A stretch of DNA of 64,000 nt from Lagopus muta. Its lineage: Eukaryota > Chordata > Aves > Galliformes > Phasianidae. Shown in pieces: positions 3,001 through 64,000 of the stretch. Location: positions 49,823,883 to 49,887,882 of the forward strand of contig NC_064436.1 in NCBI RefSeq assembly GCF_023343835.1, read 5' to 3'. Made by a program: the position numbers and the translations under genes. Each line of letters begins with the position of its first letter. The first letter of the stretch is position 1. The notes under the pieces are model-generated. The model saw only the letters and a list, made by a program, of their open reading frames with translations. It made no database searches and was not told the DNA's origin.

Positions 3001-5416
3001 AGACACAGTCACATGTTATTTCATGTCAATTAAGATTTTTATATATATATATACGAACCAATACTTAACACAGTCTACAAAAAAATAAGATTATGTAAAA
3101 TACAACATGGGAATTCAGATACACAATGCTGGCAGCTTTACAGCAAAAGCACCAAACAGCTGTAAATAGGATGTCTTGTTTACTCACCAGACATTAAGAA
3201 GGAATACAACACACATTGTTTGTCTCCAAACCTCTTCTAACAGCATGCATCACTTTCAGACAAGCTCATGTCTGTTTCGCATAAAGTATCGAAGGCTCTG
3301 TCGCCCCACAGGAAAAACATGTACTTTGTGATACTAAACTCATTGCTCTGCAAAGCTGAGACTTTTTAGCAACAGAATACTGTAAGTGGGATTGCCCCTG
3401 CACCACTACAGGAACACTGTCCATTTGGTAGAAAGTAGCATTAGGAGTTGGAACATTAGAATCTGTTACAATGTTTTTCACTGCAAAATCTAAACAGAAT
3501 GTAAACATGTCTGTCTCACAGGTAAAAAAAAATCAGTCTAGAAAAGAGTTGTGTTCTAAGAGACCCAATGCTGCAACTATTAAAGTGAACTGAGGTAATT
3601 AATCCCCATTACAATTTCAACTGGTGCAATCCAAAATTCCTTTTACACACATAACTTTTCCTCTTTTGTTATTTACTCTAAGCCCAATTTGTTTCAGACT
3701 GCTGTTAGTTCACAGAAATCTGTGAAAACATCTTTTATTCCATCTACTACTAATGTTTCAACACACCCTTCTACAAGTCTGAAAGGGAAGCACTGAACTT
3801 CATGGTTTAATACAAGTTGAGAACACACACAGTTCCACAGCTAGTTAAGATGCCTTTGTACACATCTACACATTCCTTGTGTTCCTGCCATTCCACTGTT
3901 ACTACCAGTAGCATTTGGGTGATCAAATGGTGAGCCACACTGGGGAATTTAGAAACTACTCTAGATGAAGATCCAGGTCTCACTTCATTTCTACTTTCCA
4001 AAATCGGTCCCAAAAACCAGCTCCCCACATCACTCCATGAAAGTGATTGCTAGCGTAAGAGAAGGATGAAATACACTGCCTTTCAGCAGAAACTGTTTAT
4101 ATCAGTTTAAAACTTCTTAGAAGCACATACTAAGATTATTAGAGATGTTAACTGGTGAATTACCTGAAGAAAAAAACATAATTAGAAACTGATGAGTACA
4201 GGTGAAAATAGGGATGAGAGGGAAGTCCCCTCTTTCTCTGAGGAACAGACAAAAGTAGCTTACTGTCTAAGGAGAATAGGAAGAACTACTTAACCCTACA
4301 CGTGGTCATAAAACCAGTAACTCCACCGTATCCATAATTTTCAGTAACTAGCAATTAATTTGAACTCCTAATGTAATAATCAGAAAGATCAACACAGCGG
4401 AATGGTGATACAGGAGATGTAATAACAAAAGGACCAGTGCAATGGAAAGGTGCTCACCTGTCTCTGAAGATCTAGGTTCACAGGGAGAAAACTCCACAAG
4501 GAAGAAAACTCCAAACAGCAACCCTCCCCCAGGGGGGGTCAGCTCTTAAATGGGGTCTAGGAGAGGTGCAGCAGGGCTCCACCCCCTCTGCTCACACAGC
4601 TGAATTGCCTTCACCTGTGTTCCCAGAGCTGACTGGGATTCCTCAGGTGATCAATCAGTAGTTCAGGCCATGACTCAACAGTTCCCATACACCTAGGTTC
4701 ATCTTTTGAAGATGTTCTTTGGATCCTTGATGAGAACTGATCAGAGTTGTATCTCAGTAGCAGTTTTGTGAGAAATCATTACCTGCTGGGAACTAAGTAC
4801 TGCATGTTTTACTTTTTGTCTGTGTGAGTTTTTTATGTGTAATTAAGTTTCATCTGAAGACTTCATGTGCACGTTTTGGGCTGACGTACTGCTGGAAATC
4901 AGTATATAAGAAGAAAGAATGTAGGCTCTGTGTTTCAACATACTGTTCTACTGTCTGGAGTCTGACATGATGAAGGTTAACAGTTTCACTGTGGGTCAGT
5001 GAAAGCTAGAATAATTTGAGAATAATTTACATTGTACAGTTAAAAGTCATGATGCATAAACTAGAAACACATATGTGAATGAATCTGGGATGGAAGGCAT
5101 TGGCTTCAAAACCCACAAACTGACAGTCATGTTATGTATCCTTCCTGTGAAGCAGCCACAATGAGGTAACTCACTCTACACAAACAAGCCTGCTATGCTG
5201 GCATGTAACACGGTTTAGGAAAGTCTTTTGCCCTATTAAAAAAGTCATGGCACGCTGTCACCTTGCTAAGCCAATCAGGACAAAACTCTAGGAATACTGT
5301 TAGTCAAAGGAAGTACGCTGACTTTAGATGTTGTCTTTAAGACACAATGATGTGTCTAATGACATTAAAATTATTATTTAATTCATTTCCACAAACTTTA
5401 CTGATGGAACACTTAC
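1..5416 (-). other. FAM114A1: FAM114A1 intron 3 (5' part), no further exon seen
   Basis: AT-rich noncoding sequence downstream, on the minus strand, of the second coding exon. I looked for the next FAM114A1 exon, which should continue after the SSASATVG segment, and found no match on the minus strand, so the intron probably runs past the left edge. It holds homopolymer runs, a short AT dinucleotide run near 3040-3052 and one LTR-like repeat copy near 4.5 kb. The short open frames here are not supported by splice sites or recognisable homology. Confidence 0.6.
4451..4691 (+). repeat. LTR-like dispersed repeat, copy A
   Basis: About 240 bp that aligns with 22459-22697 and the right part of 30996-31291. 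Shared landmarks in the same order are a TGCTYACC start, a CTTAAATG segment, GGAGAGGTGCAGC, GCTCCACCCC, AATTGCCTTCACCTGTG, CCTCAGGTG and an ACA end. TG...CA termini suggest a solo LTR, but no family name can be given with confidence. No clean target-site duplication is visible at this copy. Confidence 0.6.
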
Positions 5417-5501
5417 CCACTGTGGCTGAAGCTGATGACAGGAGAGACTTGCCCCAGGAACCCCACGCTCCCCATCTACTTGCTTTAGATGAGTCTGTGG
5501 C
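5417..5501 (-). CDS. FAM114A1: FAM114A1 second coding exon
   Basis: This 85-bp minus-strand exon is read after the splice acceptor TTTTACAG and ends at the donor GTAAGT, leaving a phase-1 end. It encodes 28 residues containing SRWGAWGSWGKSLLSSASATV, which matches the conserved GWGSWGKSLLSSASATVG signature after the acidic N terminus of FAM114A1 (NOXP20). It joins in frame (phase 0) to the exon at 6704-7045. The remaining roughly two thirds of the protein, with its coiled-coil part, is not in the window. The call rests on remembered family sequence and agreement of both splice sites and reading frame. Confidence 0.9.
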
Positions 5502-7053: not shown

Positions 7054-9315
7054 CTGAACAGAGAAAACAAGTCAATGTTTTCAGACTCTACAAACAGGCA
7101 AACGACCATAAAATACCTAGTGCTTCCCAAAAGCTACTGCTGAAAAACAACGTAGACTGTGTGTACCTATGGAGCGCTGTGATACGTGTGTCACACCGGC
7201 CCTGACTACTTTCACCATGCAGGACTGCACTCAAGTACAAAGAGCAGCACTATTAGTTTGTGTTCCAAAACACTGCTTGGTGATGGAGAAAGGATGTTTG
7301 TTTGTCTGGAGAGGTCAACTATGAGAACTTCCAAACGGTTAATTTCAATGATTTTTATAGAGGAAATGCCAATAGTTAGTGAGATAATCTGATCTGAAAT
7401 GGCTCTGGAACACAATGACCAAGCAGCTCTTACTCTCATTTTCATCACTTCTACTTGTACAGGTTCCTACAGCCTGCTGATTGATGGTGAGGAGGATGAC
7501 AAGAATCTGAATAAAGCACAGTGTGATTAAAGCTGTGGTAATGTTAACGTATTAGAGAAGGGAAATAATTTGAACACATGACAGGCATGGTCCCTGCAGT
7601 CATTTCGTACACAGGAAGCATCCACTGCTCACACAGTCTGTATTTCTTGCCTGGGGAATGCAATGCTTCTCACCTGTTCTAAAATGTCATGTAAGAATTC
7701 AATAAGAATTAATTAAACAATTAAGCTGTGTGACTAAACTTCAACTCTGAAGCCAATGTAAGTTTGTATGAGGTACAGTTACAGTTGTTTTTTTGTTTTT
7801 CTAAGTTTAAAACTGATTTTCCCTTATTTACTCCACATCTTTCAACACAATTTTCATTTTAAAGTATTTTCCACAATGCTGCAATCTGTAGATCAAGGAT
7901 CCAGGCACTGAGCTAGTCTTACACCTGACTAAGGAGAGGCAGAGTCCAAAAGCCCTATGAAGTGATTACCACTATTTACTTGTTGACAACAACAGCATGC
8001 CTGGCAGTGTACTTGAAAAACAAATCTTGTCAGAGTGCTGTTATTGCAAGGTCTTGTCTACACAAATTTTGTATGGCACAAAATGAACTCAGGCAATCTG
8101 TCTGGAGATGCTATATTTTTCACTGACTCCTATTCAAATTAACACAGTCCAAAGTACCTCTCTGAAGGACTGAGGTTCTAGAAGGGACTGAAGAACAGGA
8201 AAAGATGAGAAGTGGAATATGACAGGGATTTATAATGCATGACAAACGTGTATTTCTATCAGTGGAACTTATTAAAATCTGTGGAATCATGCACATCAGT
8301 GGCCTTAGCATCCCGTTTATCTAATTTGGATGTAGATCAGCTGTTTGAACAGCACCAAGTTTAAACCACTTGGGATCAGTGAACTGGAGTCATAAATAAA
8401 TAAGCAGTAGATGCCACTTACATTACTTCAGTTTACACTGGAACTTGTTTTATCTTTAGAAAATGTGCAGTTACACATCAGTATCTTTACACTTGCTGAA
8501 GTGCTGCTAAAGTGTTGCAAGCACCACCGAGTGCAGCCACCGGGCTGCGATCCGTCTGTTTATTTACTTGTTCACAGAAAGTTTGATCCTTCCTCGAAAC
8601 AAAGATGATGGAATTGAGTGGCTGCAGAGTTAAACAACAGCAGTTTCGCTTTTCAGTCATTTGCAGTTTTCCATTAAAATATCCATTAAAATATTGCAAA
8701 TACTATAAAATGCTTCAGTGTAGGCAACCATGGCTGTAGTTTAACACGACTCACTCCGCGATGAGTGAGACACCTAACGAATATGTTTCTATCTGCATCG
8801 CCTAGGACGGCCCTCTACTAAAACCCATACAACTTTTAGATATTCGTATCATAGTTCTGTATGGGATGGATGTGGACAGCAAACGCCCAACAGCAGTGCG
8901 ATATGTAAGGGATCACATGCAGTCTTGCCGGAGTAGCTCATCTTTGGGGGCCGCTGTGGCCAAGGGCCCTGCAGTTCTCCGCGCAGATGAGGGGAGCAGA
9001 GCAAACCGCCGAACTTCCCGAAGCACGGAGCAGCGCTTCGGCAATCCGTCACCCGCCGGACCCCCGCACGATGCGCGGCGGCACAGCTCCGCCCCCCCGC
9101 CCGACAGCCGCCGCCGTTCGTCCTCCGCGGGACCCGGCCCCGCTGCCACCTGCCCGGCGCAAAGCAGGAGGAACTGCCGCTCCCTCAAACCCGCAGCTTC
9201 CCCCTTTTCTTCTTTTATTCTTGCTTAAACCCTCCGGGCTTGAGCTATCGGTCAGCAGCCCGCAGCCGGTTTCAAAAGCGGCAGCAAGAAAAGCACGCAC
9301 CGCCGCTCTGCTTAC
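7054..9315 (-). other. FAM114A1: FAM114A1 intron 1
   Basis: Inferred intron between the noncoding first exon in the CpG island and the first coding exon. It is AT-rich up to about 8.5 kb, then carries one copy of a 136-bp direct repeat (8504-8639) and grades into the CpG island. No coding exon is apparent. Confidence 0.55.
8504..8639. repeat. 136-bp direct repeat flanking FAM114A1 promoter, copy 1
   Basis: Aligns without gaps to 9619-9754 (offset 1115 bp) with roughly nine or ten mismatches, mostly transitions. Shared landmarks include AGCACCACCGAGTGCAGCCA, TCCGTCTGTTTATTTACTTG and AAGTTTGATCCTTCCTC. It lies inside FAM114A1 intron 1. No known repeat family was recognised. Confidence 0.9.
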
Positions 9316-9625
9316 CGCTCTGCAGTCCGTCGCGGCGCACCCCCGGCTCCGTCCCCGCCCCGCCACGTCGGCAGCAGCGGGGGGAGGAGGGAGCGCCGGC
9401 CGGGCACGGCGGGACGGCCGGGCTGGGCCGCGCCGAGGGCGGGCTCTGCAGCCGCTCTCCGTCCGTCCCTCCGAGGCGGCCGTCTGTAGCGGAGGGGCCG
9501 CCGCGAGGTGCCGGCTGCTGGACGGGTGCGCTGCGCCGTCCCGCCGCGGCCGCCACGACCGCCACGACCCCGAGGGGGCCGACGGGGGAAGAGTGCGGCA
9601 GCGCCGGGGCTATAAAGCATGCTGA
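8935..9625 (-). promoter_or_regulatory. FAM114A1: CpG island, FAM114A1 promoter
   Basis: GC-rich tract packed with CG dinucleotides and GGCGG/CCGCCC boxes, in sharp contrast to AT-rich sequence on both sides. It sits just 5' of the FAM114A1 coding exons and contains a strong minus-strand donor (9316/9315), so it is the natural promoter of that gene. Long open frames on both strands here come from low stop-codon density in GC-rich DNA. A plus-strand TATAAAGC at 9611 could support divergent transcription, but this is weak. Confidence 0.8.
9316..9480 (-). other. FAM114A1: Probable FAM114A1 noncoding first exon (5' UTR)
   Basis: On the minus strand the sequence GCAGAGCG is followed by GTAAGC, a near-consensus donor, at 9315-9310. 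No initiator or TATA element fixes the transcription start, so the upstream boundary given is only a guess. Splicing to 7053 would give a leader ending 8 nt before the ATG. Confidence 0.45.
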
Positions 9626-9754
9626 AGTGTTGCGAGCACCACCGAGTGCAGCCACTGGGCTGTAATCCGTCTGTTTATTTACTTGTTCACGGAAAGTTTG
9701 ATCCTTCCTCAAAACAAAGATGATGGAAGTGAGTGGCTGCAGAGTTAAACAACG
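9619..9754. repeat. 136-bp direct repeat flanking FAM114A1 promoter, copy 2
   Basis: Second copy of the repeat at 8504-8639, same orientation, about 93 percent identical by eye and gap-free. It lies immediately upstream of the FAM114A1 promoter, so the two copies bracket the CpG island. Confidence 0.9.
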
Positions 9755-12700
9755 GCGGCCGCTCGGAGGCGTGCCCGCAAACTTCCAGCAGTGCCCCTCA
9801 CGGCTTTTCCTCTTTTTTTATTTTTTCCTGCCTCCTCTTAGGGCAAAGCGTGCCCTTTCGCTGCGATCAGGGTTCATTGCCGCGTCGCTTCTGCCGCCAG
9901 ACTTCCTTTTCTGAATAAAGTTATTCTCTGTTGCCCCAGGAAGCATAACACATCCTATGAATCACTGAGGAGGGCCTCTATGGGAGGCCACAAAACAAAC
10001 ACGATTTCTCGGAGGGTTGCTTCACAGCTAGGGATAGAGCCGCGTGACCGACGCCCTTACCAAGCAGATCTCTGACGCTTCCCGTGAAGGTGGCTGACAG
10101 CAGGACGAACGCCTGTATCGCTAAGGCACGCACTGATTTCTGAGGAGTTTCAGTGAGACTACAATTAACGGGGCGTGCTGGGCACTCTGGTGCCTTTCAC
10201 ATTAATGCAGTAGATGTATTCATTGAGAGCTCTGGAGTAATCCTGAGGGTTTGCCTCTGCTTTTTAATGGTATCTGCGGAAGAGTAAAGCGTTGTCTTAG
10301 GAAGAATTCTAATGGATAAAGCTCGGCGGCTGAAGATGGCTTTTTCCTCATCATGTAATATAATTTGGACTATGAAACGGATCTTAAAGTGCCAGTTTGC
10401 AGATTCTGTATAAGTCCATGCACGTTTTAGAAATGGAAGACGGTATTAATGAATCTTGTCATAGAAAGTTGTTTGTTAAGGATGAATTAACATTATAAAT
10501 GTGTGTGTATGCCTGTGGGCTAGAAGGGTGTGTTAGTTTCTTGAACTGCTGACTGACTTGTTTGAATTTAGCACTTGCGTTTTACAGTAAGTTTTCTTTT
10601 TCTTTCACTTGCCGATAATGAATTTCACTTGTATTTTTTTCTCTGCAGTGATGTCGCAAATGGTTTTTGCAACAAAAAGTTAATATGGGAAAGGAGCAGT
10701 AAGGATGGAACCTCTCTCCTCCACCCTGGATTTCACTGAAGTTTGTTATCTCTCTAAGTTGAGTGCTGTTGCCTTCTAAAAGGGCCCTTGATAGGTTTCA
10801 GAGAAAAATCACAGAATCATAGAGATTGGAAGGGATCTCTGAAAAATACTTGCCCTTTAGTGAATATAGAATTTTAAAGAAAAGATGGAAGGACACAAAT
10901 TCGTTGTGTGACTCAATCTGATTACATTTATCAAGGCACAGAATTATGCATAACATTTGGGCAACGTATTCATCTTCTTCTAGTGATTGCACGAGAGTGG
11001 TAAGTATGAGAGCTAATGGCATGCAATTCATAGTAAAATGCTTATTTTTCTGTTTAATGTATGCTTAAACATATCTTAGTAGAATGTATGCAGAGCTCAG
11101 ACTATGCCAGTGGCAGTAACAGGCCCTAATTTATGGAACAGTTCTTACATGTTAACTGAGAATATGTCTGATTCTGTACTCATTAGAGTGATATGTTTGC
11201 ATGTTCAGTTTGTTGTGCTGTTACATTCCAAAACAGGAGTGCATGTTTGGTACGACTGAAGGCTTGTAAGATTATATCTTTTCAGATAGGAGCAGGCAAT
11301 AGCATGGCTTGTAAGTAACAGTATCACGAAGTGTCACTTATAAATCAGATTTGAATACTCTTGTCTGTAATCAACAGTTATGGAGAAAGAGCTGAGGAGT
11401 ACCACCATAAGGCTTATCAGCACGAGAATGAGAGTATGAATTTTTTGTACTCTGCCGTGTGCTGTTGGTCCTGTCTTTCCCTTTCTTTTGTGGATTACTT
11501 CTTTTCACTTGAAGGTGAGAAAGGAAGAATGGCATATGGAATCTGCTGCAAAATGAGAAAGTAATATTAAAAATGATTTCCTTTGCTTACTGAATCACCA
11601 AAATGCTGAATCGTGCATACACTGTAGCATGCTATGCCAAAAAGGAAGATGAGTTCCTCGGTTAAACCATATTTAGACCTTCCTAAGATGGAATTTCTAA
11701 CTAATGTTACATGGAAATACAGAGAGGCTGGTATGTGTCTTTGCCAGGACAATAACACAAGTGCTTGGGCATTCAGTACTCAATTTGTTCTTCTGTTTTA
11801 ATTCAAAAGTTCCATGTCCACTATTTAACTCAGTTACAACACTGCTGGAATGGGAGAGAGATTCTTCTTTTACCCTTAACTGGGAATTAAAATAAGGCAA
11901 ATAATGCTTTTAAAAACCAGCTTTGATAATAACTTGTCAATTAATAAGTAGAGCTAAGTGAAAAAAAAAAGATCAGTGTAATACAAAGACCTTGATCACT
12001 ATTAAGAGATGGAGATGTTTGAACTCTGGTGTCAAACTTGCTCAAAAGAAGTGCCTACTTTTGTATTAATGTGATGAAGAAAGAAAACTGGTAAAGATAC
12101 TGAGGTTGTTTTTGGTTTTTTTTTCCTGCTTACCTTACCACAAAGCATGAAAACACCCAGTCAAATAACAACTAAATAATGGGGAAGTTATATTAGTGCT
12201 GTATGTGAAAAAACATCTGGAGAAACAGAAATGTTATTTCTCAAACTGTCAATAGATGGCACAAACAAGTTTTATAAAAAGTGTGGGTGTTTTAAAGTAC
12301 TGTTACAGAAAAGGATAGAATTACAGGAAGTTTTCTCTTTGTCTTTTCCTGAACACCTTTTCTGCTTTTTATGAGAGCGGGGATTTCAGGTAAGAAAGTT
12401 CTGTTTTTTATTGAATTTATGCTTTTTCTAGTTAGCTAAACAGCCTACTTTTATATTCTGCATCTTATTTGAAATTAGACCACGTTTTTCATAAAAATTT
12501 ATTAGCAGATGTATGATAAGCATGTGGGTAAAAAATGAGAGTGAATGGTTTTTTTGGTCAGTATATTTGTCCAGAGAAGCTGGCCAAATAGCATTCTTTT
12601 TGTATTTGTACCACAGTCATAGTGAAGGGGGTCACAGTGTTATAACTGAAGTAGTTTTCTTACAGTTAAAATTAGGTCTAACTGATAGTATGTTTCATTG

Positions 12701-13949: not shown

Positions 13950-15908
13950 ATGGCAGAGAACATGAAGTATCTCAGGAACTTTTTTATTTACAACTGTCTG
14001 TTTGCACTCACTTTTTGGAACAATATTGGCCTGGCTATGAAAAATGAACTCTTTACATCTGTTCCTAACAATTTTCTACAAGATGGTTTGGGCAAAAAAA
14101 ACTTCAGCCTTCTACCCTCATATACAAGTAATCATCAGTCTGAAGCTAATTTTGGTTGGGTTGTGATAGAAAATACTACGGAAAGCCTATCATTGTCAGA
14201 AATCACAAAAGACAATGTACAAAACTTAATAACTTTAATATCTAATTTTAGAAAAGGCTCCAGGCTACAAAATCTGACACTGACGAATATGTCAGTGTAC
14301 TGGGAAGCTCTTATTGAAGTACTCCAGACAGTATGGCACTCATCCATTGAATACTTTAGTATCACCAACTTAATACAACTGGGGAACGTCGTAAGTTCTC
14401 GCTTCGACTATTCAGATACTTCCATGAAAGCACTTGCACTGAATAAGGTTTTAGTCACAGATCTATACTTTTCACAGGATGACATTTATAACATATTTGC
14501 AAACATGAACATCGAAGCCTTGACAATAGCTGATTCTGAGTTAATTCACATGGTATGTCCTTCATCTGACAGTCCTTTTAGGTATGTAAATTTCGCAAAG
14601 AATGATTTAACAGATCTGCTTTTTCAGAACTGTGACAAACTAATTCAACTGGAGACATTTATTTTGAAAAGGAATAAATTTGAGAGCCTTTCCAAGGTGA
14701 GCTTCATGACCAGCCGTATGAAATCACTGAGGTATCTGGACATGAGCAGCAACTTGCTGCGTAACAGTGGAGCTGAGAAGCGCTGCCAGTGGACTGATTC
14801 TCTGTCAGAGCTGGACCTGTCCTCCAACCAGCTGACAGAATCTGTGTTTGAGTGCTTGCCCGTTCATATCAGCAAACTGGACCTACAAAACAACCAGATT
14901 GCCAGCGTCCCCAAGGGGATTGTTGAGCTGCAGTCCTTGAAGGAGCTGAACCTGGCATCCAACAGGCTGGCCGACCTGCCAGGGTGCAGGGCCTTTGCGG
15001 GCCTGGAGATCCTGAACATAGAGAGGAATTTGATCCTCACGCCAAGTGCCGACTTCTTTGAGAGCTGCCCGAGCGTGAAGGAGCTGCAAGCTGGGCAAAA
15101 CCCGTTCAAGTGTTCGTGTGAGCTGCAGGACTTCCTGCGCCTGGAAAGGCGGTCTGGGGGCAAGCTGTCCGGCTGGCCGGAGGCATACGTGTGCAAGTAC
15201 CCAGAAGACCTGAGCGGCACGCAGCTGAAGGACTTCCACCTGACCGAGCTGGCCTGCAACACCACTCTGCTGCTCGTGACAGCTCTGCTGCTGACGCTGG
15301 TGCTGGTGGCTGTGGTGGCCTTCCTGTGCATCTACCTGGATGTGCCGTGGTACGTGCGGATGCTGTGGCAGTGGACGCGGACGAAGCGGAGAGCTTGGCA
15401 TGGCTGCCCCGAGCAGCGGGAAGCCGTTCTGCAGTTCCACGCCTTCATTTCGTACAGCGAACGCGATTCGTTGTGGGTGAAGAACGAGCTGATCCCCAAC
15501 CTGGAGAAGGGGGAGGGCTGCATCCAGCTGTGTCAGCACGAGAGGAACTTCATCCCTGGCAAAAGCATCGTGGAGAATATCATCAACTGCATTGAGAAGA
15601 GCTACAAGTCCATCTTTGTGCTGTCCCCCAACTTTGTGCAGAGCGAGTGGTGTCACTACGAGCTGTACTTTGCCCATCACAAGTTGTTTAGTGAGAACTC
15701 CGACAGTTTGATCCTGATCTTGCTGGAGCCGATCCCTCCATATGTTATCCCTGCGAGGTACCACAAGCTGAAGGCTCTCATGGCAAAGAGAACCTACCTG
15801 GAGTGGCCAAAGGAGAGGAGTAAGCGTGCCCTTTTCTGGGCCAACCTGAGGGCAGCTATTAGCATTAATCTGTCAATGCCTGTTGAACAGAACAGAACAG
15901 AAGTATGA
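13950..15908 (+). CDS. TLR1B: Toll-like receptor 1 type 2 (TLR1B)
   Basis: Type I membrane receptor of the TLR1/6/10 family. Family members pair with TLR2 to recognise bacterial di- and triacyl lipopeptides and signal via MyD88. The 652-residue frame is one exon; a 3' splice site (TTGTTGTTGCAG) ends at 13893, 56 nt before the ATG. Visible parts: signal peptide about 1-29; a short leucine-rich ectodomain; LRRCT about 383-438 with the CSCEL cysteines; transmembrane helix about 439-463 (LLLVTALLLTLVLVAVVAFL); TIR about 496-632, starting FHAFISYSERD, with BB-loop Pro536 in FIPGKS and a closing FWANL. Compared with TLR1A it lacks about 152 residues of N-terminal LRRs, although the signal-peptide region (FWNNI) still aligns, so the loss is internal. 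Residues about 245-637 are almost identical to TLR1A (gene conversion), while the extreme C terminus differs. The gene looks intact and functional. Confidence 0.95.
   Translation: MAENMKYLRNFFIYNCLFALTFWNNIGLAMKNELFTSVPNNFLQDGLGKKNFSLLPSYTSNHQSEANFGWVVIENTTESLSLSEITKDNVQNLITLISNFRKGSRLQNLTLTNMSVYWEALIEVLQTVWHSSIEYFSITNLIQLGNVVSSRFDYSDTSMKALALNKVLVTDLYFSQDDIYNIFANMNIEALTIADSELIHMVCPSSDSPFRYVNFAKNDLTDLLFQNCDKLIQLETFILKRNKFESLSKVSFMTSRMKSLRYLDMSSNLLRNSGAEKRCQWTDSLSELDLSSNQLTESVFECLPVHISKLDLQNNQIASVPKGIVELQSLKELNLASNRLADLPGCRAFAGLEILNIERNLILTPSADFFESCPSVKELQAGQNPFKCSCELQDFLRLERRSGGKLSGWPEAYVCKYPEDLSGTQLKDFHLTELACNTTLLLVTALLLTLVLVAVVAFLCIYLDVPWYVRMLWQWTRTKRRAWHGCPEQREAVLQFHAFISYSERDSLWVKNELIPNLEKGEGCIQLCQHERNFIPGKSIVENIINCIEKSYKSIFVLSPNFVQSEWCHYELYFAHHKLFSENSDSLILILLEPIPPYVIPARYHKLKALMAKRTYLEWPKERSKRALFWANLRAAISINLSMPVEQNRTEV
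14683..15860 (+). repeat. TLR1B: Gene-conversion tract in TLR1B (pairs with 26748-27925)
   Basis: This 1178-bp stretch aligns gap-free to TLR1A at an offset of exactly 12065 bp. I count six differences, three of them amino-acid changes (H/R, V/A, V/A in the order TLR1B/TLR1A). Identity falls off sharply just 5' of GAGCCTTTCC and just 3' of GGCAGCTATT. It covers the last LRRs, LRRCT, transmembrane segment and nearly all of TIR. Confidence 0.95.
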
Positions 15909-19671: not shown

Positions 19672-20214
19672 GGATATGAGGCCCCACCTGGAGTACTGTG
19701 TCCAGGTGTGGAGCCCTCAGTACAAGAAAGACATTGAGATTTTGGAAAGGGTCCAGAGAAGGGCGACTAAGATGATCAGGGGGCTGGAGCACCTCCCCTA
19801 TGAGGACAGGCTGAGGGAGTTGGGCTTGTTCAGCCTGGAGAAGAGAAGGCTGCGGGGTGACCTCATTGCAGCCTATCAATACCTGAAGGGAACCTACACC
19901 CAGGAGGGGAGTAAACTCTTCAAAAGGGCTGACAACAGCAGGACTAGGGGAAATGGTTTTAAGTTGAAGGAGGGAAGATTTAGGGTGGATGTTAGGGGGA
20001 AGTTCTTTACTAGGAGAGTGGTTAGGCCCTGGAACGGGCTGCCCAGGGAGGTTGTGGATGCCCCGTCCTTGGACGTGTTTAAGGCCAGGTTGGACGGGGT
20101 CCTGGGCAACCTGATCTGAATGTGTATGTTTGGTGGCCCTGCTAGGCAGGGGGGTTGGAACTACATGATCCTTGGGGTCCCTTCCAACCCGGGTGATTCT
20201 GTGATTCTGTGATG
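19672..20214 (+). repeat. CR1 LINE, 5'-truncated 3' end with intact frame
   Basis: A 543-bp CR1 copy. Its frame from 19672 to 20119 is still open and reads [60 protein letters not shown] and [20 protein letters not shown], the C-terminal end of CR1 ORF2. It ends with CCTTCCAACC and tandem ATTCTGTG. The open frame and clean tail mark it as one of the younger CR1 insertions here. The truncated protein lacks the endonuclease and reverse-transcriptase core. Confidence 0.95.
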
Positions 20215-25558: not shown

Positions 25559-28015
25559 ATGGGATCTCTTACAAGTATCTATGTCTTTGCTTGTGTGTTT
25601 TTATCCATATTTTGGAATAATATCCAGTCAACTGTGGAAAATAAAATCACTGCAAACTATTCAGGACATCTACTAACTAAAGTTCCAAAAAACATTCCAG
25701 TCCATACTCATGTATTAGATTTATCACATAATAGGATCTCTGAAATTACTAACTTGGAATTTATTTCTCTTCCTGACCTTCAAGTATTAAATCTTTCTCA
25801 TAATCTAATTACAGAGCTTGACTTCAGTGTCTTCATATTTAATCAAGATTTAGAATACTTGGATTTATCTCACAATAACATTTGGACAGCTTACTGTCAA
25901 ATGCTCGCACGTCTTAGACATTTAGATCTTTCTTTCAACAAGTTCACTGTCTTGCCAATCTGTCAGGAATTTGAGATCATGTTTCATTTGGAATACCTAG
26001 GATTAAGTGCCATGATGATACGAAGGTCAGACTTCAGATATGTGACACATTTGCAGCTGAACACTGTCTTCCTAACCTTAGAAGACTTTTCTCTGTATGA
26101 GCCTCTAAGTTTAACAGCTTTAAATACAAGGAACCTTCACATTGTTTTTGCAGCAGACCAAAACTTCAACTTTTCCCTCTTATATGACGGAATGAGCACT
26201 TCAGAGAAGTTAAAAATATTTAATTTAAGATACACCTTGGGCCACAAAGATTTTCCCTCCCCTTCTTTAGAGCTTCTGAAGAACATCAAAGCAACAGAGC
26301 TAATGCTTGACACTGTGGACTTAGAATGGACGGTCATTCTGCAAATCTTTCTGCTAGTTTGGGACTCAACTGTGGAGCACTTAACTGTGAGAAATTTGAT
26401 TTATCGGGGACCAGTGGTAGAGCTCACTGAATATAAATTTGTATCCTATTTAAGACCTCTGGAACAATTTCTCTCTTTGGGTGGCTCCATGAAAGCACTA
26501 ACTTTGGAGCGTGTTCGAAATAAGTTGTACTATTTCAACCAGGAGATTGTGTACAGATTGTTTTCAGAGTTGAATATTGATAATTTGACAATACATGATG
26601 CATGTATGCCACACATGCTTTGCCCCCAAAAAACAAGCTCATTTCAGTATATAAATTTTTCCCGCAATGCCCTGACAGATGAATTGTTCCAGAATTGTGA
26701 CACTCTGATAAATTTAAAATTACTTATTTTGAATAGGAATAAATTTAAGAGCCTTTCCAAGGTGAGCTTCATGACCAGCCGTATGAAATCACTGAGGTAT
26801 CTGGACATGAGCAGCAACTTGCTGCGTAACAGTGGAGCTGAGAAGCGCTGCCAGTGGACTGATTCTCTGTCAGAGCTGGACCTGTCCTCCAACCAGCTGA
26901 CAGAATCTGTGTTTGAGTGCTTGCCCGTTCGTATCAGCAAACTGGACCTACAAAACAACCAGATTGCCAGCGTCCCCAAGGGGATTGCTGAGCTGCAGTC
27001 CTTGAAGGAGCTGAACCTGGCATCCAACAGGCTGGCCGACCTGCCAGGGTGCAGGGCCTTTGCGGGCCTGGAGATCCTGAACATAGAGAGGAATTTGATC
27101 CTCACGCCAAGTGCCGACTTCTTTGAGAGCTGCCCGAGCGTGAAGGAGCTGCAAGCTGGGCAAAACCCGTTCAAGTGTTCGTGTGAGCTGCAGGACTTCC
27201 TGCGCCTGGAAAGGCGGTCTGGGGGCAAGCTGTCCGGCTGGCCGGAGGCGTACGTGTGCAAGTACCCAGAAGACCTGAGCGGCACGCAGCTGAAGGACTT
27301 CCACCTGACCGAGCTGGCCTGCAACACCACTCTGCTGCTCGTGACAGCTCTGCTGCTGACGCTGGTGCTGGTGGCTGTGGTGGCCTTCCTGTGCATCTAC
27401 CTGGATGTGCCGTGGTACGTGCGGATGCTGTGGCAGTGGACGCGGACGAAGCGGAGAGCTTGGCACGGCTGCCCCGAGCAGCGGGAAGCCGCTCTGCAGT
27501 TCCACGCCTTCATTTCGTACAGCGAACGCGATTCGTTGTGGGTGAAGAACGAGCTGATCCCCAACCTGGAGAAGGGGGAGGGCTGCATCCAGCTGTGTCA
27601 GCACGAGAGGAACTTCATCCCTGGCAAAAGCATCGTGGAGAATATCATCAACTGCATTGAGAAGAGCTACAAGTCCATCTTTGTGCTGTCCCCCAACTTT
27701 GTGCAGAGCGAGTGGTGTCACTACGAGCTGTACTTTGCCCATCACAAGTTGTTTAGTGAGAACTCCGACAGTTTGATCCTGATCTTGCTGGAGCCGATCC
27801 CTCCATATGTTATCCCTGCGAGGTACCACAAGCTGAAGGCTCTCATGGCAAAGAGAACCTACCTGGAGTGGCCGAAGGAGAGGAGTAAGCGTGCCCTTTT
27901 CTGGGCCAACCTGAGGGCAGCTATTCACATTAAGCTGCCAACATCCTTTGAAACAGATGAGGAGCAAAATGACATCACATCTACTAGTAGTATGACCCAA
28001 CGTCTGATTAAGTGA
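25559..28015 (+). CDS. TLR1A: Toll-like receptor 1 type 1 (TLR1A)
   Basis: Full-length TLR1/6/10-family receptor of 818 residues in a single coding exon. It is expected on the plasma membrane or phagosome, where it pairs with a TLR2-type partner to bind lipopeptides. Visible parts: signal peptide about 1-22; N-terminal LRRs with clear LxxLxLSxN repeats (DLSHNRISEI, NLSHNLITEL, DLSHNNIW); a long central ectodomain with weaker repeats, as in TLR1/2/6; C-terminal LRRs; LRRCT about 535-590; transmembrane helix about 591-615; TIR about 648-784 with FHAFISYSERD and the BB-loop proline Pro688. The C-terminal tail is 14 residues longer than in TLR1B. The start is chosen as the first ATG after the acceptor at 25471, and it opens directly onto a signal peptide. 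The part encoded by 26748-27925 is a gene-conversion tract shared with TLR1B. No defect is visible. Confidence 0.96.
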   Translation: MGSLTSIYVFACVFLSIFWNNIQSTVENKITANYSGHLLTKVPKNIPVHTHVLDLSHNRISEITNLEFISLPDLQVLNLSHNLITELDFSVFIFNQDLEYLDLSHNNIWTAYCQMLARLRHLDLSFNKFTVLPICQEFEIMFHLEYLGLSAMMIRRSDFRYVTHLQLNTVFLTLEDFSLYEPLSLTALNTRNLHIVFAADQNFNFSLLYDGMSTSEKLKIFNLRYTLGHKDFPSPSLELLKNIKATELMLDTVDLEWTVILQIFLLVWDSTVEHLTVRNLIYRGPVVELTEYKFVSYLRPLEQFLSLGGSMKALTLERVRNKLYYFNQEIVYRLFSELNIDNLTIHDACMPHMLCPQKTSSFQYINFSRNALTDELFQNCDTLINLKLLILNRNKFKSLSKVSFMTSRMKSLRYLDMSSNLLRNSGAEKRCQWTDSLSELDLSSNQLTESVFECLPVRISKLDLQNNQIASVPKGIAELQSLKELNLASNRLADLPGCRAFAGLEILNIERNLILTPSADFFESCPSVKELQAGQNPFKCSCELQDFLRLERRSGGKLSGWPEAYVCKYPEDLSGTQLKDFHLTELACNTTLLLVTALLLTLVLVAVVAFLCIYLDVPWYVRMLWQWTRTKRRAWHGCPEQREAALQFHAFISYSERDSLWVKNELIPNLEKGEGCIQLCQHERNFIPGKSIVENIINCIEKSYKSIFVLSPNFVQSEWCHYELYFAHHKLFSENSDSLILILLEPIPPYVIPARYHKLKALMAKRTYLEWPKERSKRALFWANLRAAIHIKLPTSFETDEEQNDITSTSSMTQRLIK
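26748..27925 (+). repeat. TLR1A: Gene-conversion tract in TLR1A (pairs with 14683-15860)
   Basis: This copy carries G or C at all six positions that differ from TLR1B, and four of these are CpG sites lost in TLR1B. Both edges lie within coding sequence: the 5' edge in a late LRR and the 3' edge a few codons after the TIR domain. Confidence 0.95.
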
Positions 28016-60883: not shown

Positions 60884-62115
60884 ATAGGGAGTTGAGGGGC
60901 AGCGGCGAGGGGCCTGGACGAGGCCACCAATCCACCAGAAAACAGCCCGAAACAGGAAAGAGCACCACATATGCCACTTGGAATGTGTGACGCAAACCCC
61001 AGCCTTGAAACAAAGAACAGGAAACAGCTCTGCTGGCTGCACTGGGGAGAAAGCACACAGAAACATTTAGGCGGCCCTCCCTGGCCCTATATTCATGAGC
61101 AGCTGGAGTCTTTTAAAACAACAACAGTGGGTGGAGGTGTTTGTTCATTGGGTGTGAAGAAAAACACTGTCCTTATGCAGGGGACCTGCCCTATTGACAA
61201 ACAGGCGCCCTGCACAACATGAAGGAGTGGGAGATTTTCAGACACCATGGGTCACCATGATTAACTGCAGCCTTCCCTGGGCTGATGGATTTATTGCTGG
61301 ACTGATATCACCAGTAGCTGAACAGCAGCACAGCTTCGTTGTTCCCAGCAGCCAGCTCCCCATCCAAAGCATGGACCCTCACAGACAGAACCATAGGCAC
61401 CCTGCAGGCACTGCTTTCAACTGTTAAAGGGCTTCTCCTGGCCTCCTTCATTTGGCACAGCTCAGCAAATTGTTCCAGAATTTTGCCTTCCCCATCCCTC
61501 TGTCTCACACAGACCTCACCTCGTGACCTGTGGAGGTAATACTGTTATTGTCAAAGCTCAACAAATGAATTCCTCAAGATGGAAGCAGAGCGAGGGTGCA
61601 TCTGGTCCAGATGCCCATTATAGCAACTTCAAGGTGTGTTTTCCTTCGAAGCTGTGGTTTCAGTACCATCTTCCCTGACATGCTTTGGTTGCTTGTACCC
61701 TATGGGTGAGACATCTAAAGCTATCCACGGTGAGGCTGTCTCACAACAAACTACATGGTGGTTCACAGCAGCAGCTCCAGCAGCTGTCGGCTCCATGCTG
61801 ACCTACCAGCTCCTCTTCATGCTGAGTATCTGGGACTGTAAGCAGCACCTGTATTGCGCAACTCCTATCTCCAACATCTCAGGACCTTTGTCTGATCTCG
61901 CTCACATTTACATGGTTATTTGTCTGAAGGCTTTTGCTGTTGGCAATGCAGGCACTGGTTGCACAGGTCACATCCCCAGAGCACCTCAGGGCTCTGCTAC
62001 TTAGAGGAAGTTCTGTCCGGTTCCTCGTGGAAGGAAGCAACACATTTAGTACCTTTTCTCCCTGCCCTTGACACCAGTCTCCCTCCCAGTCTGCACAGCG
62101 CATTCTGGGAAGGAA

Positions 62116-62137
62116 AAAAAAAAAAAAAAAAAAAAGG
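62116..62137 (+). repeat. Poly-A run
   Basis: Just over twenty consecutive A residues in otherwise ordinary intron DNA. No retroelement body was recognised immediately upstream. Confidence 0.85.
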
Positions 62138-63346
62138 CATTTGTTTGCTTGGACAAAAACAGAAGCGGTCACTCATGTCAGCACACTCAGGTTTTTGTAT
62201 TTTTATATTAGACAAAAAGTTCTTAAAAATACGAAGGTTGGTCTGAAGTAATTCTCCAGGGTCAGGCAGGATTATCAGATCCAGATGGAGCTCCTCTCAC
62301 ACAAAGTTCCTCATGCAATTACCAAGAACACGCGTCTTAAAAGCACTCAGTGGAAAAAGTCATTACCGTGGAGCCGTGTAATCCTTTGTCTTGGATGCAG
62401 GTAACGAGCATTCACGGATATTATTAGCTTAAATAAAGTCTTCAAAGCTCTCCTCCCACCACCCAAACGGAGCTTCTAGTAACAATACAGCCCTCAGAGC
62501 TCAGCTCCACTTCCTGCTCTTTCAGGGGCCGGGAAGCGAACGCAGCGAGAGGACAATGCAGGTACCTGACCGCGTCTGCCGGGCAGCGGCACGAGCACGA
62601 GGCGGCCCGGCTCCGCTGCGCGCCCCACGCAGCCCTCGGGCGCCCGCCTCAGTACCCGCGCCTGACGTCCCCGGGCCGCCGCTGACTCCGCTCCAAAGCA
62701 AATATCCCGCTCCCTTTTCGGCTTTACAAAGCGACATCCAGAAAAGGGAGCCGAACTACGGTCGTTATTTCTAATTCCATATTTAACCGCGGCGCTTCCC
62801 TGGACGCTGCGTGGTTGAACTTCACCGACCTCGCTGTAACGTGGTGCTACGGTCGGTGACGATATGCGGGAAAACCTATTTCCGAGAGCCCGTATCGTCC
62901 CCGGTTAAGCACTTTCCAACGGCGAGCTCCTGCAGCGGCGTTCCCCGCCGCCGGGCAGCACTCGCCCTCCGATGGACACGCAGAACCCGCCGTTCTTTTC
63001 ACCCCAGCGCCGCCCGACGCCGTGCCACGTTGGGATCCGCTGACACCGTTCCCCCTTCCCGCGGCCGAACCCCCGGGGGAGCCGCGAGGGGCCGGCCCGG
63101 ACCCCCGAGGAAGGGTCGAGAGTCCCCGGGCGCCCCCGGCGGCCGCGCAGGTGCGCGGAGCCGCGTCCACGCCGCCACGCGGGAGACGCCGCCGGAGCCG
63201 CGGGGGGCAAGCGAATCCGGCCCCGCGCTCCGCCCGGCTCCGTTCTCCCGGCTCCCGCCCCGGGCACCGCGGAGCCGGCAAACTTTTCCCCTCCCGCAGC
63301 CTATCCCGCCGCCGCAGCTCCCTCCCGTCCCGGCCCTCGCACTTAC

Positions 63347-63540
63347 GCGGTGCTCCCGCAGGGCCGGGATGGCGCGGGGCGGCGGGGGCCGGGGGCGCTG
63401 CGGAGGCTCCGTGCCGGCGTGTCCCGCGGCTGAGGCGCCTCCGCGGTGGCTCCGGGTCTGCGTGCGAGGAGGAGCCGCCCGCCGCCGCCCTGCCTCCCGC
63501 CCTCCGCCCGCCTCCCCCCCGGGCTGCTGGCACCGGGCCG
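63347..63540 (-). other. KLF3: Probable KLF3 noncoding first exon
   Basis: The minus-strand sequence GAGCACCGC is followed by GTAAGT, a full-consensus donor, inside the CpG island. Splicing to 59865 or 53201 would supply the 5' UTR. The upstream limit is a guess because no transcription start is visible; another possible donor (GGTCAG/GTACCT) lies near 62570. Confidence 0.45.
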
Positions 63541-63544
63541 CGCT

Positions 63545-63554
63545 GTCACATGAC
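63545..63554. promoter_or_regulatory. E-box/M-box (GTCACATGAC) in KLF3 core promoter
   Basis: Extended E-box TCACATGA, the type bound by MiT/TFE and USF factors, embedded in the CpG island immediately upstream of the inferred first exon. Confidence 0.35.
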
Positions 63555-64000
63555 GCGGCGCCTCTCGCCCTGCCAGGCTCCCTGGGCCGGCGGGGTTAGC
63601 GCTGGGAGGGTCACGGAGGGGAGCGCGGGAGGGCGGCTCCCGCCCGCGGGGTGGAGGCTCGGCCGAGGCGAGTCAGCGAGCAAAACAGCCGGGCACGCAC
63701 TGACTGCGCGCCGCCCGCCCTGCCTCCCGGGAGCAGACGGCCCCGCGCAGACACTAATTATCCCCAGCAGCCCGGGGAGGGAAGGAGAGGGGAGCGGAGG
63801 GAGGGGAGCGAGGCCGCCGCCCGCTGACAAACCTGCCTGGCCAGCTGCTGTTCCCCGCCCGGCTGTCAGGCAGAGGCGTGCGCCTGGCACCCGGCTCGCA
63901 GCGCACCCCGTTCCCTCCCTCCGCGCCCACCCCGGCCGACCTGCGGCGGCAAAACAACAGCAACACCCAGCGCCCGGGGGGCAGGAAGGGAGGTGCTCGC

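Follow-up and report, generated by a model that had tools for sequence, protein, structure and literature searches.

Gene content and organization of the locus

The 64,000-nucleotide stretch of Lagopus muta DNA that was analysed (hereafter the window) carries two single-exon Toll-like receptor genes in tandem, TLR1B and TLR1A, whose positions are given in Table 1 together with those of the other features discussed below. Their coding sequences are equal in length to chicken TLR1LB (1959 nt) and TLR1LA (2457 nt), respectively (PMC2275738). An LRR ectodomain and a TIR domain are recognized by Pfam in each predicted protein, and the top solved-structure match of TLR1A is a human TLR1 chimera (6nih, E 1e-99), in keeping with receptors of the TLR1 family; in an NCBIfam scan of two TLRs all matches fell under their cut-offs.

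Table 1. Features of the TLR1B and TLR1A genes, in window coordinates
Feature	Position	Strand	Details
TLR1B coding sequence	13950..15908	+	Single exon, 652 aa, 1959 nt; ORF; Pfam LRR and TIR
TLR1A coding sequence	25559..28015	+	Single exon, 818 aa, 2457 nt; ORF; Pfam
TIR domain of TLR1B	15441..15878	+	aa 498-643; Pfam PF01582; final 18 bases outside tract
TIR domain of TLR1A	27506..27973	+	aa 650-805; Pfam PF01582; final 48 bases outside tract
Converted tract in TLR1B	14683..15860	+	Full codons 246-637; 6 mismatches in 1178 bp against 26748-27925
Converted tract in TLR1A	26748..27925	+	Full codons 398-789; gap-free partner of 14683-15860
High-GC3 segment of TLR1B	14682..15851	+	GC3 0.79 against 0.36 outside; change-point fit made without TLR1A
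High-GC3 segment of TLR1A	26747..27916	+	GC3 0.80 against 0.38 outside; change-point fit made without TLR1B
Paralogue difference A/G (TLR1B/TLR1A)	14866	+	His306 / Arg458; CpG in TLR1A
Paralogue difference T/C (TLR1B/TLR1A)	14923	+	Val325 / Ala477
Paralogue difference A/G (TLR1B/TLR1A)	15185	+	Silent; CpG in TLR1A
Paralogue difference T/C (TLR1B/TLR1A)	15401	+	Silent; CpG in TLR1A
Paralogue difference T/C (TLR1B/TLR1A)	15427	+	Val493 / Ala645
Paralogue difference A/G (TLR1B/TLR1A)	15809	+	Silent; CpG in TLR1A

Near the start of the window, at approximately 5397-5477, the minus strand bears an exon of the FAM114 family, in line with the gene order FAM114A1-TLR1B-TLR1A-KLF3 given for chicken in the available text of two reports (PMC7017630, PMC5767321). 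Apart from the tracts, the sole stretches of the window in which a 1178-bp segment reaches a GC content of 0.56 or more are 8325-10493 and 61936-64000; judging from the published gene order, these probably represent promoter islands, one belonging to FAM114A1 on the minus strand and the other to KLF3. The starts of TLR1B and TLR1A are 11609 bp apart, compared with 10472 bp in chicken (PMC2275738). Positions 19676-20208, between the two genes, hold a fragment of a young repeat of high copy number, which recurs at 99-100% identity in at least 39 other genomic places among the 40 (of 2472) first-look candidates that were scored, and its insertion may explain part of the difference in spacing. Segments downstream of the two genes are approximately 72-74% alike and were considered as leftovers of the gene duplication, a possibility that was discarded when the TLR1B-side stretch turned out to be a high-copy repeat. 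The TLR1 pair (49.8 Mb) shares its contig with a TLR2 pair (1.3 Mb), the positions published for chicken chromosome 4 being different, at 71.6 Mb and 21.1 Mb (PMC2275738).

A near-identical tract joins two otherwise diverged genes

The initial annotation had described a 1178-bp block common to both genes, with about six substitutions and an identity of about 99.5%. Alignment along the diagonal at offset +12065 reproduces this description exactly, revealing six mismatches and no gaps over 1178 bp, and a BLASTN search of the window with the tract returns these two copies only, at 99.491% identity. The edges are abrupt. The nearest mismatches beyond the tract occur at 14682 and 14669 on the 5′ side and at 15861/15862 on the 3′ side, and the number of mismatches per 50 bp on the diagonal is 19-45 over positions 14300-14649, 0-2 within the tract and 29-40 from position 15900 onward. 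Nucleotide identity in a codon alignment is 50.9% in the 5′ flank (241 codons), 99.5% in the tract (392 codons) and 46.7% in the 3′ remainder (15 codons), so that the coding DNA beside the tract is indeed highly diverged at both edges, as had been proposed. A GENECONV analysis had been suggested as a check, and was carried out in the form of a GENECONV-like maximal-segment score with a mismatch penalty of 6; the tract scores 1146, whereas the highest score among 2000 shuffles was 87, with a Karlin-Altschul-like log10 P of about -55 for the tract.

These observations support the proposal of gene conversion between TLR1B and TLR1A, a process that has been established in publication for four further bird species (PMC3125219). 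A recent partial duplication or unequal crossing-over would be favored by the tandem, same-strand arrangement of the genes, but both copies of the tract are in frame with the diverged coding sequence around them, and there is no third full copy of the tract in the window or in the whole genome, where all four candidates were scored and proved to be the two full copies and two 139-bp, 78% matches in the TLR2 pair. We regard this explanation as highly improbable. It is harder still to credit that purifying selection or convergence kept the two halves identical without any exchange. TIR domains are conserved, as this account would require, yet silent sites in the tract are near-identical as well, with only two of 165 fourfold sites differing (13 of 22 in the 5′ flank), even though chicken differs at six of 111 bases compared within the tract (see below). 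Similarly, where the paralogues encode a common amino acid, the same codon is used in 386 of 389 cases in the tract and in 47 of 93 in the 5′ flank.

An artifact of assembly, in which two similar loci were collapsed or their consensus sequences mixed, is also very unlikely. Short-read bird assemblies have been troubled in the TLR1/2 family, according to the accessible part of one report (PMC8788240). Against this, six differences persist between the copies and the window contains no N, and the available description of the rock ptarmigan assembly bLagMut1 gives PacBio HiFi data with an average coverage of 57.75x (PMC10320755), which makes a collapse unlikely. In addition, cloned turkey and duck genes are described as carrying the same kind of tract (PMC3125219, in the part available).

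The tract was originally said to span the last LRRs, the cap, the transmembrane helix and the TIR domain, and this holds for most of that region, the exception being the end of the TIR domain. The final six residues of the TIR match in TLR1B and the final 16 (790-805) in TLR1A lie outside the tract, as do the tails that follow. The accompanying view that the ligand-binding part diverges and the signaling half is kept identical is only roughly correct. In the accessible text of Huang et al. (PMC3125219) the tract begins at LRR14, and the available portion of one paper cites LRR6-16 as needed for ligand specificity; the tract therefore overlaps the end of that region.

All six differences within the tract are transitions in which TLR1B has A/T and TLR1A has G/C. 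Three of them change an amino acid and three are silent, and four of the six fall at CpG sites of TLR1A. This one-way pattern is as expected if CpG sites of TLR1B have decayed since the last exchange, and the six differences thus do not themselves demonstrate biased repair. In a structure-match alignment, human TLR1 has Arg at the position of TLR1A Arg458; because TLR1A agrees with human TLR1 at this site, the TLR1B residue His306 is probably derived. The direction of the last transfer was also sought at the other two amino-acid differences, which could not be polarised. A search of viral contigs with the tract protein yielded two pattern matches and no confirmed one.

Published oligonucleotides and the two copies

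Oligonucleotides published for the chicken genes provide a small sample of orthologous sequence. Neither of two chicken TLR1 oligonucleotides had an exact match in a first comparison, and seven of eight published chicken TLR1 oligonucleotides mismatch the L. muta sequence, which sets it apart from that of chicken. Six of the eight lie within the tract, where five mismatch, with identical mismatch sites in the two copies; the 111 distinct tract bases beneath these six include no difference between the L. muta paralogues and six differences from chicken. The paralogues are thus closer to one another in the tract than to the orthologue, in a small sample of 111 bases. In the two oligonucleotides outside the tract, five of 40 bases mismatch. 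The 10 tract sites at which chicken or turkey/chicken oligonucleotides differ from L. muta comprise six with A/T in the oligonucleotide and G/C here, three with the reverse and one with G/C in both, so that no clear AT-to-GC bias emerges from these ten unpolarised sites. No TLR1 oligonucleotides were found in the available text of PMC4325706 and PMC6789546, and a search of chicken SNP papers for shared polymorphism returned nothing usable.

Of 14 published chicken or turkey/chicken oligonucleotides for expression of TLR1A, TLR1B or TLR1, 12, taken from four papers, fall within the tract, at window positions 14706-15802, and match both paralogues equally in L. muta. Such assays could not distinguish the two genes in this bird and may fail to do so in any other whose tract copies are alike.

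Base composition changes near the edges of the tract

Third codon positions distinguish the tract from the remainder of each gene. GC3 in TLR1B is 308/392 (0.79) within the tract and 91/245 (0.37) in the 5′ part (Fisher P 9e-26), and in TLR1A it is 311/392 within the tract and 150/397 in the 5′ part (Fisher P 4e-33). Fitting two breakpoints to GC3 in each gene separately yielded the segments listed in Table 1, with support ranges, defined by two log-likelihood units, of 14679-14697 and 15845-15854 for TLR1B and 26744-26762 and 27910-27919 for TLR1A. The breakpoints lie one base from the identity edge on the 5′ side and nine bases from it on the 3′ side; the 5′ identity edge falls inside the support range and the 3′ identity edge lies six bases past it. 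The gain in log-likelihood on a coarse grid was 61 and 77, against maxima of 10 and 12 in 60 shuffles each, although the two fits are not independent within the tract, where the genes are mutual copies; the low-GC flanks have diverged. Codon positions 1 and 2 are also richer in GC within the tract, and the CpG observed/expected ratio is 0.52-0.55 there compared with 0.24-0.35 in the 5′ coding flanks.

Raised GC3 is a recognized mark of converted gene pairs, as set out in the accessible text of PMC2720389. The available text of the two studies of TLR conversion closest to ours (Huang et al., 2011, PMC3125219; Kruithof et al., 2007, PMC2077338) nowhere mentions GC content, GC3 or bias. Among the papers listed in our literature searches there was none on GC3 in avian TLR pairs, which does not prove that none exists.

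The TLR2 pair and single TLR loci as comparisons

The TLR2A/TLR2B pair (contig C7, 1.29-1.30 Mb; L005:3072-6699 and L006:2485-6115) offers a second case within the genome. The two genes are near-identical from about codon 5 to codon 226 (two differences); a diverged stretch then reaches about codon 419, beyond which the copies remain identical up to the stop. GC3 broadly follows this arrangement, with 0.67 in the first converted segment, 0.25 (TLR2A) and 0.33 (TLR2B) in the diverged middle and 0.73 in the second converted segment. GC3 is therefore raised in converted relative to unconverted coding parts in all four genes, TLR1A, TLR1B, TLR2A and TLR2B. The edges of identity and of GC3 do not coincide in the TLR2 pair, the low-GC3 trough (codons 187-474 in TLR2A and 180-475 in TLR2B) being wider than the diverged middle (approximately 227-419). 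The TLR1 tract is coding throughout, but the TLR2 pair includes converted non-coding DNA. The first 875 bases 3′ of the stop codon are identical between the copies, with one mismatch in the first 1000, and the conversion tract thus extends well beyond the gene; at 39% GC these 875 bases show no rise, which could mean either that conversion there is recent or that it is not biased. We take both discrepancies to mean that the tract has recently widened into formerly unconverted parts, an interpretation of our own that one genome cannot prove and that could excuse too much.

A search of the genome with TLR1A gave 25 matches, four of which are the two pairs, and six of the other 21 were taken as controls for GC content; the match at C17:852046, which covers only query residues 363-610 and lacks a TIR domain, was left out together with 14 weaker ones. 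From their length and place we take the six to be TLR15-, TLR21-, TLR7-, TLR5-, TLR4- and TLR3-like. Frames were read from stop to stop, those of the TLR4-like and TLR3-like loci being partial and the TLR3-like exon ending within its TIR domain, and GC3 of the last 421 codons was compared with that of the rest. In this comparison the values are 0.77/0.38 for TLR1A and 0.76/0.37 for TLR1B. None of the six control loci displays a comparable step, and in four the difference is not significant (P at least 0.07): TLR7-like (0.46/0.40), TLR5-like (0.40/0.39), TLR4-like (0.54/0.51) and TLR3-like (0.34/0.39). The TLR15-like locus, which is single-copy and has no paralogue in the comparison, has a mild rise (0.56/0.42, P 4e-5), and the TLR21-like locus differs slightly at a high level (0.81/0.74, P 0.012).

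These comparisons bear on the possibility that the conversion is real and that the GC step reflects codon selection or domain constraint rather than biased repair. The mild rise toward the 3′ half of the TLR15-like gene and the GC-poor composition of the identical TLR2 3′ flank count in favor of such an account. It has more difficulty with a single-exon frame that holds halves with GC3 of 0.38 and 0.79, with a diverged TLR2 middle that is low between two high converted segments, and with the elevation of GC at codon positions 1 and 2; moreover, the TLR4-, TLR5- and TLR7-like genes and the partial TLR3-like exon have no significant change at the same distance from the end. We therefore consider it rather unlikely.

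Relation to known systems of TLR gene conversion

Conversion of the C-terminal part of TLR1A and TLR1B was reported in chicken, turkey, duck and zebra finch by Huang et al. (2011; PMC3125219), with GENECONV support of 3.61E-51, 2.46E-50, 1.47E-43 and 3.20E-60, respectively (their Table 1). The present case involves the same genes and the same 3′ half, with apparently similar edges and with similar significance, in another species. The published tract runs from alignment columns 1178-1191 (start) to 2374-2466 (end), and that of L. muta corresponds to nucleotides 1190-2367 of TLR1A, the column numbering being different. In the trees of Huang et al., the converted part groups the paralogues, and the sequence outside it follows the species tree gene by gene. 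A neighbor-joining tree built with TLR1-like sequences from galliforms and zebra finch points the other way, as it resolves TLR1A and TLR1B into single clades, although the available text does not describe it as built from the tract only (PMC7017630). The same source reports the Japanese quail genome to be without TLR1A, its authors not excluding an assembly error.

The six differences seen here compare with 16 in chicken, 26 in turkey, 38 in duck and one in zebra finch (PMC3125219), the published fragments being slightly longer and the counts not strictly comparable. From the values of 16 in chicken, one in zebra finch and six in L. muta in about the same tract, it seems that the time since the last exchange varies widely among birds.

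Two further systems resemble the present one in part. In mammalian TLR1/TLR6, as far as the accessible text of Kruithof et al. (2007; PMC2077338) describes it, the last four LRRs, the cap, the transmembrane helix and three quarters of the TIR domain are homogenised, and the edges are strikingly conserved, a feature for which the authors offer no clear explanation; that pair arose by a different duplication, and its 5′ edges lie at nucleotides 1284-1306. The avian TLR2A/TLR2B pair, also treated by Huang et al., has in the L. muta genome two tracts around a diverged middle, of which the C-terminal one passes the stop codon, whereas in their study adding the 3′-UTRs left the tract ends unchanged except in cattle TLR1/6. 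Finally, pairs that have evolved in concert over long periods are mosaic genes with higher GC3 in the converted parts, as here; the examples in the available part of that report are mammalian (BMP8A/B, DDX19A/B and TUBG1/2), and the rise in BMP8A/B is not significant (PMC2720389).

Probable recurrent conversion, its age and a possible mechanism

The initial annotation had invoked a recent transfer of the tract. Conversion, and a recent date for the last exchange, both stand; recurrent conversion with fixed edges describes the tract better than a single transfer, because the GC3 plateau would need many rounds and the published edges appear similar in four birds. A lone recent event, the ends of the tract being the ends of that event, would be expected to leave sharp edges and few differences, and both are observed. 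Against it stand the similar edges reported for four other birds (PMC3125219) and the closeness of the GC3 breakpoints to the identity edges in TLR1B and TLR1A alike, which would need a donor already endowed with the plateau; the TLR2 pair, moreover, has the same kind of pattern with looser edges. On these grounds we judge a lone event to be improbable.

By far the most probable explanation is that TLR1B and TLR1A, tandem paralogues of long standing on the same strand, have had their 3′ halves repeatedly homogenised by non-allelic, GC-biased gene conversion, the latest exchange being recent. With the galliform rate of 1.4e-9 per site per year given in the available text of Temperley et al. (PMC2275738), six differences in 1178 bp place the last exchange at approximately 1.8 My ago (Poisson range 0.7-4.0 My). 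This is a low estimate because of purifying selection, and the same formula applied to fourfold sites (2/165) gives approximately 4 My; the best reading is that the latest exchange occurred roughly 1-4 My ago.

Repeated homogenisation of this kind could proceed as follows. The two same-strand copies, about 12 kb apart, would mispair non-allelically to form heteroduplex, the mismatches of which would be repaired with a bias toward G/C, and many such rounds might lift GC3 to 0.79. The edges may mark the points at which homology had decayed too far for pairing, so that each round would halt at about the same place. Converted alleles would then probably spread through selection for a common signaling and dimerisation half, leaving the N-terminal LRRs to diverge.

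Birds are not known to have PRDM9, and their recombination breaks are placed at CpG-rich sites. This raises the further possibility of a self-sustaining island, in which GC-biased repair built a CpG- and GC-rich patch that draws the next break, locking the edges in place for tens of millions of years. We put this forward as a speculation that is more probably wrong than right by a wide measure. If it were true, GC3 would be a fossil record of long conversion activity and identity the record of the last event, and TLR2, where GC3 and identity disagree, would be a tract that is now widening.

Conversion between TLR1A and TLR1B was already known, and the L. muta result is confirmatory in this respect, extending it to one further bird. 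Its addition concerns base composition, which in one genome delimits the converted part of the TLR1 genes with a precision of about three codons and does the same, with less sharpness, for the TLR2 genes. GC3 thereby suggests a way to read the long-term conversion history of a gene pair from a single genome, apart from the record of the last event.
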